DNA of 64,000 nucleotides from Methylomonas koyamae (GTDB lineage: Bacteria; Pseudomonadota; Gammaproteobacteria; Methylococcales; Methylomonadaceae), in NCBI RefSeq assembly GCF_001644025.1, contig NZ_LUUK01000183.1, positions 1 to 64,000 of the forward strand, read 5' to 3'. The notes under the pieces are model-generated. The model made no database searches. It was not told the DNA's origin and was given only the letters and a program-made list of their open reading frames with translations. Positions 7,779-13,593 of the stretch are shown piece after piece (positions within the stretch are counted from its first letter, which is position 1; the number at the start of each line of letters is the position of its first letter). A program made the translations under genes and the position numbers.

Positions 7779-7987
7779 CGGTCAAGATGGTCGCCGGCGG
7801 CTGGTCCGAGTTTGCGCGGGGCAGGGTGGGCTGCGTTTAATTCTCGCTCGCCTAGAGGCAATCCTGTCAATCTCCGGCGCGGGCGCGGCCGGAGCGGCGC
7901 TTAAATCCGTATCGGCGGGATAGCGACGTGCGGGCAATGTATCAGCCGTTTGCTCGAAATTGGCCGATCTGAGCCAATTTCAATACA

Positions 7988-8959
7988 ATGCCTCCCAAAC
8001 GGTATTCGGGAGTGGTGGTGGCGACGTTATTTTGGTTACAAACCGGCGCATGCGGCGGCGAATCGCTGGCGATACTCAGTGCCCAATCGCCCAGCATCGA
8101 GCAACTGTTCGCGACGCACGGCGTCGAGCTGCTCTGGCATCCGTCCTTATCCAGCGCGTCTATGCGCGAGCACGACCGCCTGATCGAAGCCATAGGCGCC
8201 GGAGAACGGGCGCTGGATATTCTCTGCGTCGAAGGCAGCATTGTCACCGCGCCGCGCGGCACCGGCTTGTACGACAGTTATCGCGGGCGGGCACGGATGG
8301 AGATTGTCCGCGAGCTGGCTCAGCGCGCCGGCGTCGTGGTGGCGATGGGGACTTGCGCGGCGTTCGGCGGCGTGCATGCCGCCGCGCCGAATCCCAGCGA
8401 CTGCATCGGCTTGCAATTCGATCGTGACCTGCCGAGCGGTTTGCTACCGGCGGAATGGCGCTCGCGGCGCGGCTGGCCGGTGGTCAATCTGGCCGGCTGT
8501 CCGGCCCATCCGCATACCATGACGCAAACCCTGGCCTGGCTGGCGGCCGGCATGCCCTTGCCGCTGGACGAGCTGAATCGGCCGCTGGCCTTTTTCAATA
8601 CTGTCGTGCACCAAGGTTGCACCCGCAATGAGTACCACGAATACGACATCGAAGATACCGAATTCGGCGGCAAGGCGTGTCTGTTTTTTAATCTGGGTTG
8701 CCAGGGACCGATGACGCAAGCGGTGTGCAACAGCGACTTGTGGAACGGCGTAAACAGCAAGACCCGCGCCGGCGTGCCGTGTTTCGGCTGCACTTCGCCG
8801 GATTTTCCGCGTGAAGTCGATTTGTTCAGCACGGAAAAAATCGGCGACATTCCGGTGCGGCTGCCGATGGGCGTGGAACGGGCGCGTTACATGGCTTACA
8901 AGAATCTGGCTAGGGCGGCCGCGCCGGCGCGGGTCGAGGGCAAGGATATGGACGTCTGA
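7988..8959 (+). CDS. [NiFe]-hydrogenase small subunit, soluble, probable sensory type
   Basis: A 323-residue electron-transfer subunit without a Tat signal or C-terminal anchor, so cytoplasmic. Fe-S ligands are visible: proximal cluster Cys22, Cys123 and Cys171; distal His208, Cys211, Cys231, Cys238; medial Cys247, Cys265, Cys268. The second proximal Cys of the usual C-x-x-C is Glu25 (Ala-Cys-Gly-Gly-Glu). The upstream ATG has no ribosome-binding site; a GTG at 8018 preceded by GGGAG would remove ten residues and is a credible start. It overlaps the large subunit by one base (TGATG). Lack of a signal peptide, plus linkage to a c-di-GMP enzyme, favours an H2 sensor over an energy-conserving enzyme. 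Exact subgroup not assigned. Confidence 0.85.
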   Translation: MPPKRYSGVVVATLFWLQTGACGGESLAILSAQSPSIEQLFATHGVELLWHPSLSSASMREHDRLIEAIGAGERALDILCVEGSIVTAPRGTGLYDSYRGRARMEIVRELAQRAGVVVAMGTCAAFGGVHAAAPNPSDCIGLQFDRDLPSGLLPAEWRSRRGWPVVNLAGCPAHPHTMTQTLAWLAAGMPLPLDELNRPLAFFNTVVHQGCTRNEYHEYDIEDTEFGGKACLFFNLGCQGPMTQAVCNSDLWNGVNSKTRAGVPCFGCTSPDFPREVDLFSTEKIGDIPVRLPMGVERARYMAYKNLARAAAPARVEGKDMDV

Positions 8960-10488
8960 TGGCGCGGGTCGAGCTAAATGTCAATTTGAACCGGGTCGAG
9001 GGCGACCTGGAACTGGCGCTGAGTCTGGAAGATGGCGTGGTCGTGGAAGCGCGCACGGTCGGTACGCTGTATCGCGGTTTCGAACAAATTCTGGTCGGAC
9101 GTAGTCCGCGCGACGCCTTGGTTCTCACACCGAGAGTATGCGGGATTTGTGGCACCGCGCATTTGTACACGGCGGTGCTGGCCTTGGAGCACGCCTGGCG
9201 CGTGCCGGTTCCGGCCAATGCCACCCGGATTCGGAACGTTTGCCTAATCGCGGAAGGCATCCAAAACGATTTGCGGCAAACTTTCTTGTTCTTCGCGCCG
9301 GATTTCCGCAACGCCCGTTACCGCGACCGGCCGTGGTTCGCGGCGGCGGAGGCTGAGTTCGCGCCGTTCGCCGGGCGCGTGCACCGGGAAACCTTGGCGA
9401 TTACCCGAAGGGTCGTCGAAGTCGTCGCCCATTTCGGCGGGCAATGGCCGCATTCGTCGTACATGGTGCCGGGCGGCGTCACTTCGCCGGCCGATGCCCG
9501 CCGATTGCTTGCCTGCCGGACGATCTTCGCCGAAGTGCGCGAATGGTACGAGCGCATCGTGATCGGCGCGCCGCTGGACGAATGGTTGGCGCTGGATAGC
9601 GCCGCCGGTTATTTCGAGTGGCTGGAGCGGCCGGCGCATGCCGCCAGTGCATTGGGCTTGGTGAGCCGCTGCGCGCGCGACCTGGGTTTGCAACGGATGG
9701 CGGCCGGTACGCCGCATATGATCAGCTTCGGCGCTTGGTGCGATCCGGCCCACTGGGACGCGCCGCACAGCGCCCGATTGATGTCGGGCGGATTCTACGA
9801 CGGCGATACCGGGCGTATTGCCGAACTCGACCAAGCGCTGATTAACGAGCACGTCCGCCATTCCTGGTTCCGGCCGTATTCGGGCGGTCGCCATCCCTGG
9901 CAGGGCGAGACGATTCCGGATTACCAACCGGGCAGCGATCGTTACACCTGGGCGAAAGCGCCGCGCTACGCCGACAAGGTCGTGCAAACCGGCCCGTTGG
10001 CCGAATTGCTGATCGGCGGCGACGCCTTAATTGCCGATCTTTACGCGACCGAAGGCGGCAACGCCTGGTTGCGGCAATTTGCCAGGGTTCGCCGCATCGC
10101 TTACGAATTGGCGCAGGCCGAACGGCATTTGCACGAATTGGCCGAACATCTCGGCGAGCCGCATATCGCCAATCCGGCCAAGCATGCCGAAATCGACGGT
10201 GAAGGCTACGGCCTGATCATGGCGGCGCGCGGGGCGCTGGGACATTGGCTGCGGATACGCGGCGGCGTGATCGAAAAATACCAGATCGTCACGCCGACCG
10301 CCTGGAACGCCTCGCCGCGCGACAGCGCCGGGCTTCCCGGCCACTGGGAGCAAAGTCTGGTGGGGCTGAGCGTGGCCGACCCCGACGATCCGGTTGAAAT
10401 CGGCCACGTGATCCGTTCTCACGACCCTTGCCTGGTCTGTACCGTGCATATGCTGGAAACCGGCAAACGCTGGCGTTTCCTGCCGTGA
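8959..10488 (+). CDS. [NiFe]-hydrogenase large (catalytic) subunit
   Basis: A 509-residue active-site subunit. The N-terminal nickel motif Arg-Val-Cys-Gly-Ile-Cys-Gly-Thr-Ala-His has Cys61 and Cys64; the C-terminal motif Asp-Pro-Cys-Leu-Val-Cys-Thr-Val-His has Cys491 and Cys494. Twelve residues follow His497 (MLETGKRWRFLP), the usual position for the peptide removed by a maturation protease after nickel insertion. That matches the protease encoded next and differs from HoxC/HupV-type regulatory large subunits, which lack such a tail. It is translationally coupled to the small subunit. No hyp genes for cofactor assembly lie in the window, so they must be elsewhere. Confidence 0.92.
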   Translation: MARVELNVNLNRVEGDLELALSLEDGVVVEARTVGTLYRGFEQILVGRSPRDALVLTPRVCGICGTAHLYTAVLALEHAWRVPVPANATRIRNVCLIAEGIQNDLRQTFLFFAPDFRNARYRDRPWFAAAEAEFAPFAGRVHRETLAITRRVVEVVAHFGGQWPHSSYMVPGGVTSPADARRLLACRTIFAEVREWYERIVIGAPLDEWLALDSAAGYFEWLERPAHAASALGLVSRCARDLGLQRMAAGTPHMISFGAWCDPAHWDAPHSARLMSGGFYDGDTGRIAELDQALINEHVRHSWFRPYSGGRHPWQGETIPDYQPGSDRYTWAKAPRYADKVVQTGPLAELLIGGDALIADLYATEGGNAWLRQFARVRRIAYELAQAERHLHELAEHLGEPHIANPAKHAEIDGEGYGLIMAARGALGHWLRIRGGVIEKYQIVTPTAWNASPRDSAGLPGHWEQSLVGLSVADPDDPVEIGHVIRSHDPCLVCTVHMLETGKRWRFLP

Positions 10489-10499
10489 CGGTGACGTTG

Positions 10500-10952
10500 A
10501 TGCCGCATATCGTTTGTTTCGGCAATCCGCTGCACGGCGACGACGGCTTCGGCGCGGCGGTGTATACGCGCCTAAGCGAAACTCCGCTGCCGGACGGCTG
10601 GCGGGCGTTCGACGCCGGCACCTCGGGCTTGAACGCGCTGTGGTTGTTTCGGGACTGCGGCGAAGCCATCATCGTCGATAGCCTGGCGCCGGGCGCCGAG
10701 CCGGGCCGCTTGCGGGAATTGACGGCCGGCGATGTGCTGACCGAAGCCGCGCCGGTCGGGCACGGCGGCGGGGTTGGCTATTTGTTGCAAGCCTTGCAAG
10801 CGATGCCGGAACCGCCGCCGCGCGTCCGTATCGTCGCGGTCGAATCCGCCGACGTGTCGGCCTTTCGGCCGGGTTTATCCTCGCCGGTCGCGGCCGCCGT
10901 GGCGCCGGCCGTGGCGCTGATCCGTAGTTACATCGGAGCCGGCGATGACTGA
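10500..10952 (+). CDS. Hydrogenase maturation protease (HupD/HyaD family)
   Basis: About 150 residues, family M52 aspartate-type nickel-dependent peptidase that trims the large-subunit tail. The N-terminus has Gly-Asn-Pro-Leu-His-Gly-Asp-Asp-Gly-Phe-Gly, the family signature with the nickel-binding acidic residue, then Phe-Asp-Ala-Gly-Thr-Ser-Gly and a downstream His-Gly-Gly-Gly. A GTG at 10485 overlaps the large-subunit stop as GTGA and could be the coupled start; the ATG at 10500 is the conservative choice. Its presence implies that the large subunit is proteolytically matured. It overlaps the following gene by eight bases, so the whole block is one transcript. Confidence 0.85.
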   Translation: MPHIVCFGNPLHGDDGFGAAVYTRLSETPLPDGWRAFDAGTSGLNALWLFRDCGEAIIVDSLAPGAEPGRLRELTAGDVLTEAAPVGHGGGVGYLLQALQAMPEPPPRVRIVAVESADVSAFRPGLSSPVAAAVAPAVALIRSYIGAGDD

Positions 10953-13593
10953 CCAGGCCCTGCAAGCCGAATTGGAGTGGCTAAGGTTGGAGCTGGCCGC
11001 GTTGCGGCTGGCGAATTCCGCGTTGGAACAGCAAATGGTGAAGGGTGCCGAGCAAACCGACGCGATGATTCGGGCGTTGGAGACGCAAAGCAGCGCGCTA
11101 AGGGCGGCGAATCTACGGCAACTCAACCAAACCAATTTTACGCAGCGGGTGATGGACACCACCGGCGCGCTTGTGATCGTGCTGGGTCCGGACGGCAGAA
11201 TAAGCCAGATCAATCGGCGTTGTGCCGAAGCGATGGGCGAGCAAGCGGCGGCGATCGAGGGTCGCGTTTTGGACGAATGGCTGTTTCCCGACGAATTGCA
11301 AACCTTGATGGACCAATTGCCGGAATTGCCGTGGCCGGTGTATTCGCCGTTGTTCGAAACCCTGCGTCGGGCCGACGGTTACGCGGCCGAGCACCGTCTG
11401 GCCGATTCGAGCGGCGCGTTCCACGATTATTGGATGGAAGCAAGCCTACTGCACAGCCCGCAGGGTAAGGAAGAAGGCGCGGTGATTTGCGCCACCGACA
11501 TCAGTGCGTTGAAGAATCAGCAAAACCGTTTGCGGCGTAGCGAAAGCCTGTTGAAGGAAGCCCAACATATCGCGCAGTTGGGCCATTGGGAGCTGGATTT
11601 GGCGGCGGACCGCTTGATTTGGTCCGAGGAAGTTTGCCGGATATTCGAGTTGGACGCGGCGCGGGCGCCGGCCAACTATCAAGCGTTTCTGGCCTTGGTG
11701 CATCCGGACGACAGGGCCGCCGTCGATCAGGCCTACGCCGAGTCGCTGAACTCGCCGTGCGCGTTCGCGATCGATCACCGTTTGTTGCTGGCCGGCGATC
11801 GAATCAAATGGGTACACGAGCGTTGCGTCACGCATTACGACAGCGACGGCCGGCCGCTACGCTCGTTCGGCACGGTGCAGGACATTACCGCCCAGCGCGA
11901 TGCCGAGTCGGAGCAGGAACTGGCGGCCAGCGTGTTCGACAACAGCTTGAACGGCATCATGATTACCGATGCGAAGACCCGCATCATCAAGGTGAATCGG
12001 GCGTTTTCGGAAATCCTGGGTTACGCGCCGCCCGAGGTGCTGGGCCACAAAGCCAGACTGTTGAAATCCGGCAATCAGGACGCGCATTTTTACCGGAATT
12101 TGTGGCGCACTCTGGAACGCGACGGCAAATGGCAAGGCGAGATTTGGGATCGCCGCCGCGACGGCGGCGTGGTTCCACTGTGGCAGAGCATCTCGGTGGT
12201 GCGAGCGATGGACGGCCGCTTGCTGCATTACATCGGCGTGTTTTACGATCTTAGCGAACAAAAGCGCAACGCCGAGCACATTCACCGCTTGGCCTATTAC
12301 GACGTGTTGACCGGTCTGCCTAATCGGCAATTGCTGAACGAGCGCTGCGAACACGCGTTGCGGCGCGCGCAGCGCGACGGCCAGGGCTTGGCGGTCTTGT
12401 TCCTGGATTTGGATCGTTTCAAGCACGTCAACGATACCTTGGGTCATCCGGTCGGCGACGAGCTGTTGCGCGCGGTGGCGCAGCGTCTCAGGGACAGTTT
12501 GCGGGAAATCGATACCGTGGCCCGTCTGGGTGGCGACGAATTTATCGTTCTGCTTGAAGACACTCGCCACCAACCGGACATCGAACGGATCGCCGCCAAA
12601 ATTCTCGGCGCGCTGACCCTGCCGTTTAACGTCGCCGGCCATCGCCTGGACATCGGCACCTCGATAGGCATCAGTCGCTTTCCCGGCGACGGCAACGATG
12701 CGACCACGCTGATCAAACATGCCGATTTGGCGATGTACCGGGCCAAGGAACAGGGCAGGGGCAATTTCCAGTTTTACGAAGCCCATCTCACCGCCCGCGC
12801 CAACGAACGGCTGTATCTCGAAGGCGAGTTGCGCGAGGCCGTGGCGCGCGGCGAGCTGACATTGTATTACCAGCCGCAATACCGGGTCGGCGACGGCCGT
12901 CTGGCCGGCGCGGAAGTGTTGTTGCGTTGGTTTCATCGCGAATTGGGCATGATCCCGCCCGATAAATTCATTCCTATCGCCGAGGATTGCGGTTTGATCG
13001 TGCCGATCGGCGAATGGGTGTTGCTGATGGCTTGCCGGCAACTGAAGAGCTGGTTGGACTGCGGCTTGAATCTGCCACGCGTGGCGGTGAACTTGTCCGG
13101 CGTGCAAATTGAGCGCGGCAATATTCTGGCAATGGTCAGCCAGACCCTGGCCGCGACCGGCTTGCCGGCGAGCTGTCTGGAACTGGAAATCACCGAGACC
13201 TACATCATGCGTCAAGCGGAGTCCAATGTCGGCGTGCTGGAAGAATTGCGCGCGTTGGGCGTGACCTTGGCGATCGACGACTTCGGTACCGGGCATTCGT
13301 CGTTGGGATACTTGAAGCGACTGCCGGTCGCCAAACTGAAAATCGATCGCTCGTTTGTGATGGACATTCCGCAAGACAGCAACGACGTCGCCATTACCCG
13401 CGCCATTCTCGCCCTGGGTCAAAGTCTGAAGATGACGGTATTGGCCGAAGGCGTCGAAACCGCCGAACAGGCGGCGTTTTTGCGCGAACTAGAGTGCGAC
13501 GAAGTGCAGGGCTACTTTTTCGGCAACTGTTTGGATAGCGCGGCCTTCGCCAAGCTATTGCAAGTCGCGGCGGAGGCCGGCGAATTCAGCTAG
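10945..13593 (+). CDS. PAS-PAS-PAS-GGDEF-EAL c-di-GMP turnover protein
   Basis: An 882-residue soluble protein with a GGAG site six bases before the ATG. Order: coiled coil (about 5-60), three PAS domains (about 65-190, 205-315, 325-435), GGDEF (about 445-605) and EAL (about 625-870). The diguanylate cyclase site is intact (GGDEF at 529-533). The EAL signature reads Glu-Val-Leu (657-659), keeping the catalytic Glu; Asp-Asp-Phe-Gly-Thr-Gly, Lys-Ile-Asp and Ala-Glu-Gly-Val-Glu-Thr are also present, so both activities are plausible. No membrane segment. Being fourth in a hydrogenase unit and overlapping the protease gene, it most likely receives the redox or H2 signal through a PAS domain. The coupling is an inference. 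Confidence 0.92.
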   Translation: MTDQALQAELEWLRLELAALRLANSALEQQMVKGAEQTDAMIRALETQSSALRAANLRQLNQTNFTQRVMDTTGALVIVLGPDGRISQINRRCAEAMGEQAAAIEGRVLDEWLFPDELQTLMDQLPELPWPVYSPLFETLRRADGYAAEHRLADSSGAFHDYWMEASLLHSPQGKEEGAVICATDISALKNQQNRLRRSESLLKEAQHIAQLGHWELDLAADRLIWSEEVCRIFELDAARAPANYQAFLALVHPDDRAAVDQAYAESLNSPCAFAIDHRLLLAGDRIKWVHERCVTHYDSDGRPLRSFGTVQDITAQRDAESEQELAASVFDNSLNGIMITDAKTRIIKVNRAFSEILGYAPPEVLGHKARLLKSGNQDAHFYRNLWRTLERDGKWQGEIWDRRRDGGVVPLWQSISVVRAMDGRLLHYIGVFYDLSEQKRNAEHIHRLAYYDVLTGLPNRQLLNERCEHALRRAQRDGQGLAVLFLDLDRFKHVNDTLGHPVGDELLRAVAQRLRDSLREIDTVARLGGDEFIVLLEDTRHQPDIERIAAKILGALTLPFNVAGHRLDIGTSIGISRFPGDGNDATTLIKHADLAMYRAKEQGRGNFQFYEAHLTARANERLYLEGELREAVARGELTLYYQPQYRVGDGRLAGAEVLLRWFHRELGMIPPDKFIPIAEDCGLIVPIGEWVLLMACRQLKSWLDCGLNLPRVAVNLSGVQIERGNILAMVSQTLAATGLPASCLELEITETYIMRQAESNVGVLEELRALGVTLAIDDFGTGHSSLGYLKRLPVAKLKIDRSFVMDIPQDSNDVAITRAILALGQSLKMTVLAEGVETAEQAAFLRELECDEVQGYFFGNCLDSAAFAKLLQVAAEAGEFS

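Follow-up and report, generated by a model that had tools for sequence, protein, structure and literature searches.

The window analysed here is a stretch of 64,000 nucleotides from Methylomonas koyamae (assembly GCF_001644025.1, contig NZ_LUUK01000183.1, positions 1 to 64,000), and it contains a four-gene unit that joins a [NiFe]-hydrogenase to an enzyme of cyclic di-GMP (c-di-GMP) turnover. The unit consists of four intact open reading frames (ORFs), all on the plus strand, encoding the small subunit (hupS), the large subunit (hupL), a maturation protease and a PAS-GGDEF-EAL protein (Table 1). Every Pfam domain call for the four proteins was over cut-off, which bears out the overlapping small-subunit, large-subunit, protease and three-PAS GGDEF-EAL genes described in an earlier reading of the same DNA (the original prediction). 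The last base of the hupS TGA opens the hupL ATG, a 1-bp overlap. hupL ends in GTGA and overlaps the protease gene by 4 bp if the GTG start is used (the ATG start leaves an 11-bp gap), and the protease and GGDEF-EAL genes overlap by 8 bp.

These ORF bounds and overlaps agree with the original prediction, except that the hupS start, placed there at ATG 7988, is probably GTG 8018 (313 aa), because a Met occupies this position in all nine aligned relatives (four start there, five have it inside a longer ORF) and the -10 box of the sole promoter-like site found overlies ATG 7988. The sequence GGGAG ends 5 bases upstream of GTG 8018. By inspection of the window ORFs only, the hydrogenase N-terminus has no twin-arginine motif, the neighbouring ORFs include no cytochrome b gene, and no electron-transfer subunit was seen beside the hydrogenase. 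The absence of a Tat signal and of a membrane subunit had been predicted; the absence of an electron partner, also predicted, holds for the window and fails for sister lineages, whose partner proteins carry a Rieske domain. HypD is encoded elsewhere in the same genome (G000), as are two further [NiFe]-hydrogenase large subunits (contigs C155 and C189), one nearest E. coli hydrogenase 1 and the other nearest group 3 models; contig C151 gave a weak, unassigned match.

Table 1. Features of the four-gene unit and its upstream region, in window positions.
Feature	Position	Strand	Basis or remark
Promoter-like site TTGGCC-18-TACAAT, 5' of hupS	7960..7989	+	consensus match only; 1 found vs 0.1 expected
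hupS, [NiFe]-hydrogenase small subunit	8018 (probable start)..8959 (ORF from ATG 7988)	+	Oxidored_q6 PF01058 and NiFe_hyd_SSU_C PF14720
hupL, [NiFe]-hydrogenase large subunit, 509 aa	8959..10488	+	NiFeSe_Hases PF00374; L2 motif RSHDPCLVCTVH
Hydrogenase maturation protease	10485 (GTG) or 10500 (ATG)..10952	+	HycI PF01750 and TIGR00072 over cut-off
Coil-PAS-PAS-PAS-GGDEF-EAL protein, 882 aa	10945..13593	+	Pfam PAS, GGDEF, EAL
Coil + PAS1 module, ~residues 3-190, common to kinase-type partners	10951..11514	+	
Second PAS (PAS_3 type)	11557..11904	+	not in the 4 Rieske-type partners of alignment A3
Third PAS	11908..12264	+	
GGDEF domain	12292..12762	+	GGDEF motif and RxxD (REID) intact
EAL domain, EVL variant	12826..13524	+	all other scored motifs present

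The hydrogenase is a group 2 enzyme. For both subunits, the best solved-structure matches were 7uus/7utd, named 'Hydrogenase-2' (E 2e-101 for the large and 5e-82 for the small subunit), with the next solved structures at E 4e-64 and 6e-34, respectively; 7uur was also among the nearest solved relatives. We take these three entries to be the mycobacterial hydrogenase Huc, of group 2. hupL contains the cysteine pairs C61/C64 and C491/C494, presumably the Ni-binding pairs, and continues for 12 residues after H497. The Cys and His residues of hupS that align with cluster ligands (323-aa numbering) are H208, C211, C231 and C238 (presumably distal), C247, C265 and C268 (presumably medial) and C22, C123 and C171 (presumably proximal).

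The loci used for comparison (L numbers) are the best 80 of 525 confirmed and are therefore not a fair sample; some of their genomes recur among the surveyed genomes (G numbers). In a large-subunit tree of 96 rows, the window fell within a 44-row clade (Shimodaira-Hasegawa-like approximate likelihood ratio test, SH-aLRT, 100). HoxC (L136, with L050), the Huc-type loci L137, L138 and L049, the Gram-positive loci L118, L122 and L133 and a second, outer clade of 43 rows all lay outside it. Placement among energy-conserving hydrogenases, one of the outcomes that the original prediction had set against itself, was not found: hupL lies outside, and distant from, the group 1 outgroup, in a tree without groups 3 and 4.

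Within group 2, sequence relatives and gene neighbourhood indicate that the enzyme most likely belongs to HydDB subgroup 2c, 'diguanylate cyclase-linked (putative)'. An adjacent diguanylate cyclase/phosphodiesterase gene, a 2c trait, is present, and the 44-row clade also holds Methylobacter tundripaludum SV96 (L068), with support 100/100. Genes of M. tundripaludum were the top matches when Thiomargarita genes were called group 2c (PMC4853749; this and the other papers cited are drawn on through excerpts of their text). The L2 consensus quoted there for 2c is SFDxCLVCTVH. The window reads SHDPCLVCTVH (RSHDPCLVCTVH), with H in place of F, as does the Thiomargarita sequence quoted in the same paper at this position. 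All 44 clade rows end in RSHDPCLVCTVH followed by a short tail, whereas the other group 2 rows compared have SFD or SYD at this place, and HoxC stops at the His. Because the quoted consensus has F where the 44-row clade has H, the 2c label is likely rather than settled. This His, in the hupL L2 motif (window 10417-10449), stands three residues before the first L2 Cys (RSHDPC for the usual RSFDPC) and is shared by 44 of 44 clade rows but absent from every other group 2 row compared.

The distribution of the unit was surveyed in 237 genomes of the family Methylomonadaceae, 35 of which gave matches at E 1e-90 or better: 32 at ≥55% identity over the aligned part and three at 40-45%. A GGDEF-EAL partner is present in all 32 of the closer genomes, although it is split into two ORFs in G095 (L197) and runs off the contig in G090 and G224; in G007 (L048) the contig starts inside hupL, and hupS was not seen. 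Since all 32 share this kind of partner, the gene order is, on sequence grounds, not due to chance, and the loss of the partner in relatives, which had been named as a counter-indication, was seen in 0 of 32. Of the three distant family genomes, G227 has a hybrid kinase and G133 a HoxBCJ-like set, and in G074 no partner was seen. Farther relatives, those of the outer clade, mostly have a histidine kinase in place of GGDEF-EAL. Distribution within the genus is patchy, with the unit in 10 of 36 genomes and additionally in the same-species genome G162, and among the loci compared the window's flanking genes are kept only at the same-species locus L189, which fits a unit that moves as one piece. 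A small-subunit search found no relatives on viral contigs. At L066 (9992-12606) and L197, the GGDEF-EAL partner appears as two ORFs in one Methylobacter metagenome-assembled genome (MAG), through a frameshift or an assembly error.

By simple patterns, the window partner has GGDEF, RxxD and all scored EAL motifs (with EVL for EAL), and could on balance either make or break c-di-GMP. In the same scoring, three EAL motifs are absent in each of L061 and L135, and L044 and L045 read SGDEF. The partner of Sedimenticola hydrogenitrophicus (L058:7984-10617) has an intact GGDEF and no scored EAL motif, and may be a cyclase only.

Partner output varies within the 44-row clade: 26 partners, including that of the window, are GGDEF-EAL proteins and 17 histidine kinases; at L062 the end of the contig truncates the partner. 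The maturation protease is fused in frame before a PAS-kinase at four loci (Pfam HycI). These protease-histidine kinase-receiver fusions (L074:9262-11823, L075:9511-12630, L076:9226-12627 and L087:8381-11539) stand beside 2c-like hydrogenase genes. In a tree of both hydrogenase subunits (50 rows, 826 columns), the GGDEF-EAL-linked hydrogenases occupy two places and were joined in 0 of 200 bootstrap trees; forcing them into one clade was 110 log units worse (approximately unbiased test, p 5e-9), in a test whose groups were partly picked after the first tree was seen. The coil-PAS1 tree (~194 residues, 44 rows, L079 half filled) agrees with it in the main groups and leaves L065 unresolved. The window lineage, L062 and the kinase-type L063 group together at 100/100 in the hydrogenase tree and 100/98 in the coil-PAS1 tree, where a single clade of GGDEF-EAL rows was likewise rejected (p 0.0011). 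A single origin of the GGDEF-EAL coupling is thus rejected by both trees. Because the coil-PAS1 tree is much like the hydrogenase tree, the hydrogenase and its reader module appear to stay together while the output changes.

For the GGDEF-EAL parts themselves, one source is neither proven nor excluded: mean identity between the two lineages is 46%, against 44% and 43% to paralogues in the window genome, and a short branch with SH-aLRT 85 unites the two. In the outer 43-row clade, a kinase lies downstream (same strand, within 6.5 kb) at 34 loci, three of which also have a receiver-GGDEF gene, a GGDEF gene without a kinase at three, and neither was seen at six, some of them on short contigs. At L120, L131 and L113, the kinase and receiver-GGDEF gene 3' of the hydrogenase could form a phosphorelay to c-di-GMP.

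PAS domains often bind ligands of their own, and the window partner has three of them; control could accordingly run in reverse, with the PAS-GGDEF-EAL protein sensing redox or another ligand and the protein, or c-di-GMP, gating the hydrogenase. The kinase-type siblings share the input module and have another output, which better fits a sensor at the hydrogenase end, and reverse control is highly improbable.

Alongside the exchange of outputs, a second variable element was found at the N-terminus of the partner. A hidden Markov model (HMM) built here detected a Rieske [2Fe-2S] domain in the partners of 20 of the 32 family genomes and none in the other 12, including the window. Within the 44-row clade, 13 of the 26 GGDEF-EAL partners have a match and 13 have none; seven kinase partners have one in the same protein (broken in L078). 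With Pfam, Rieske was found in four of the 11 partners of alignment A3; matches over cut-off were obtained for L065, L070, L068, L045, L080, L130 and L195, and none for L082 (motif intact) or L078 (motif broken). Of the ligands, C58, H60 and C78 are invariant in the 18 aligned rows and H81 is present in 17. A single Rieske sequence matched solved Rieske proteins weakly (best E 0.017), and a 17-row profile matched 25 distinct solved sequences with E values up to 0.01, which by name or family are all Rieske-type (ferredoxins, b6f/bc1 type subunits and oxygenases). The model of the first 323 residues of L068 shows a beta domain, a ~70-residue helix and a PAS domain (mean predicted local distance difference test, pLDDT, 84); in fold searches with this model (mc462098c5c4e), the PAS domain took up the matches listed and the Rieske part gave none among them, so that the identification as Rieske is supported by sequence only. 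The corresponding model of the first 330 residues of the window partner has the same long helix and PAS, followed by a second PAS (pLDDT 87).

A hidden Rieske domain or gene was sought in the 13 rows of the window's lineage and rejected: the HMM matched neither the partners nor anything else encoded on that strand within 6.5 kb; the window itself was covered by Pfam for its own protein and by inspection for its ORFs. Two pattern matches were also discarded: the one in L057 belongs to a ring-hydroxylating oxygenase, which has a true Rieske domain but is the product of an unrelated gene 5' of hupS, and the one in L099 is without any Pfam match. At L065 (3819-4154), in a SAR324 MAG, a stand-alone Rieske gene of 112 residues lies between protease and kinase, an unfused arrangement. 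Among the paper titles listed by the literature searches, none concerns a Rieske-GGDEF or Rieske-kinase hydrogenase partner; the class-founding paper (PMC4817680) may describe one. The excerpts of PMC12727194 report a NifU-Rieske cluster and an EAL-GGDEF-PAS cluster near [NiFe]-hydrogenase genes, as separate clusters, and those of PMC10787695 hold nothing on Rieske-type hydrogenase partners.

The best reading of this comparative evidence is that the cytosolic 2c-type hydrogenase is probably an H2 sensor that acts on c-di-GMP through the coil-PAS1 part of its GGDEF-EAL partner. Retention of the partner in 32 of 32 genomes while the flanks are not kept, intact motifs, matching trees and the fusions argue for it, as do the nearest solved relatives, presumably of group 2, the kinases downstream in the outer clade and the presence of HypD in the genome. 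The tail and the protease gene suggest that the protease would trim hupL after nickel insertion, and the matching trees that the mature dimer of small and large subunits would dock on coil-PAS1. H2 oxidation would then alter the redox or docking state of coil-PAS1, and this change would shift the balance of diguanylate cyclase and phosphodiesterase, hence c-di-GMP. In sister lineages, the Rieske domain before the coil would take the electrons first and then alter coil-PAS1. Because the window lineage is without it, an electron or a contact would there pass to the PAS part directly, or to an unlinked carrier. This Rieske-free coupling is the weakest step, since no PAS1 cofactor was found and docking fits that lineage equally well.

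Docking could indeed be the whole signal of the same sensor, with an H2-driven conformational change of HupSL read by coil-PAS1, no net electron transfer and a structural or accessory role for the sister Rieske domains. This version is possible, if rather unlikely. The Rieske-free state of the 13 rows, shared by the four protease-kinase fusions, four Vibrio/Enterovibrio loci and L063, agrees with it, as does the lack of a cofactor assigned to PAS1; all four Rieske ligands, however, are kept in 17 of 18 rows, needlessly for a merely structural domain, and the regulatory hydrogenase (RH) is reported to sense only while it keeps oxidising H2 (PMC10073562).

Several observations weigh against an H2 sensor linked to coil-PAS1. 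The fold matches of PAS1 are generic PAS domains (DosP, LOV, NifL, MmoS, FixL) and gave no basis for assigning a redox cofactor to it. The coil-PAS1 HMM is unspecific: its matches extend to HoxJ of Cupriavidus necator and, in many Rieske-type partners, to the second PAS. The neighbourhood domain HMMs were built from few seeds, and the Pfam check covered part of the proteins. At one proximal-cluster position, HoxB retains the Cys but E/D stands here and N in the Huc-type L137, and the cluster set is therefore more like the uptake type. The C-terminal tail of hupL and its protease also set it apart from HoxC, the proven sensor subunit, which lacks a tail and does not need this processing. The tail, the protease and the proximal-cluster site resemble catalytic enzymes, and the best solved match is presumably the uptake enzyme Huc; the hydrogenase could thus feed cell metabolism, with the GGDEF-EAL gene merely co-transcribed. 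Such an uptake role is nevertheless quite improbable, given that no electron-transfer subunit was seen alongside among the ORFs inspected, that the partner is present in all 32 close family genomes, that the tree of its input module is much like that of the hydrogenase and that at least two further [NiFe]-hydrogenases are encoded in the genome.

On the sequence evidence, the unit is real and conserved in close kin, and it is most likely an H2 sensor acting on c-di-GMP, within a named putative class. For methanotrophs, this would link sediment H2 to the decision to attach or swim. The wider comparison bears on the question of where RH, a proven H2 sensor, delivers its electrons in the cytoplasm, an acceptor described as 'yet unknown' (PMC5665086). 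We propose, tentatively and with somewhat less than even confidence, that hydrogenase, protease and coil-PAS1 co-evolve, with an optional Rieske domain, fused or encoded by its own gene, as first acceptor and an output that swaps between c-di-GMP enzymes and kinase phosphorelays, at least two changes falling on the hydrogenase tree. The missing acceptor would then be the signalling protein itself in Rieske lineages, and the relay would have been lost from, or never present in, the window lineage. Rieske-bearing siblings make the acceptor question of sensory hydrogenases testable, as their candidate acceptor, part of the signalling protein itself, can be followed by spectroscopy and altered by mutation, and the kinase-type and c-di-GMP-type siblings behind one input module are experimentally swappable.

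Among known systems, the closest is HydDB 2c, tabulated as 'Diguanylate cyclase-linked (putative)', 'Undetermined role. May sense H2 and regulate processes through cyclic di-GMP production' (PMC5037454). H2 sensing via c-di-GMP had thus been proposed for this group by 2016, and the proposal that the original prediction mentioned for group 2 exists. Because HydDB describes 2c in these terms, the interpretation offered there equals a published one; the idea is sound but not new, and what is added here is the module comparison. No experiment on H2 sensing through c-di-GMP was seen in the excerpts of the papers cited. The window shares with 2c the cytosolic group 2 hydrogenase, the neighbouring c-di-GMP enzyme, holders in Methylobacter (PMC4853749, PMC12810054) and the sensing proposal. 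It differs in that the Rieske domain carried by the M. tundripaludum type is missing from its lineage, and its clade includes kin with histidine kinases, outside the scope of the class name, so that 'diguanylate cyclase-linked' may cover only part of the lineage.

The group 2b systems HoxBC-HoxJ and HupUV-HupT likewise place a two-subunit hydrogenase beside a PAS-bearing signalling protein, but their output is a kinase, where the window partner is GGDEF-EAL, and they form a separate clade. HoxC, reported without a cleaved tail (PMC10073562), ends at the last His, with no protease annotated in the stretch compared. The window has tail and protease, lacks a histidine kinase partner and does not group with HoxC. 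HoxJ and the window coil-PAS1 gave no significant BLAST match (E 0.07), yet the module HMM matches HoxJ.

The group 2a enzyme Huc, if 7utd is indeed Huc, is the best solved match of the window and likewise has a C-terminal tail and a protease. Huc needs the NifU-Rieske protein HucE for H2 oxidation (PMC6883350), and a NifU-Rieske gene neighbours the hydrogenase in L137. From this gene we infer that L137 belongs to 2a, as presumably do L138 and L049. The window lies outside the clade of these three loci, no HucE-type Rieske match was found beside its lineage, and the annotation of L137 and of L138 shows neither a kinase nor a GGDEF gene. Where a Rieske part is present in the window's clade, it is instead fused to, or beside, the signalling protein. 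Judged by its sequences, the 2c-like clade joins a signalling protein to a predicted enzyme of uptake-like kind that has the tail, the protease and, in some lineages, a Rieske part.

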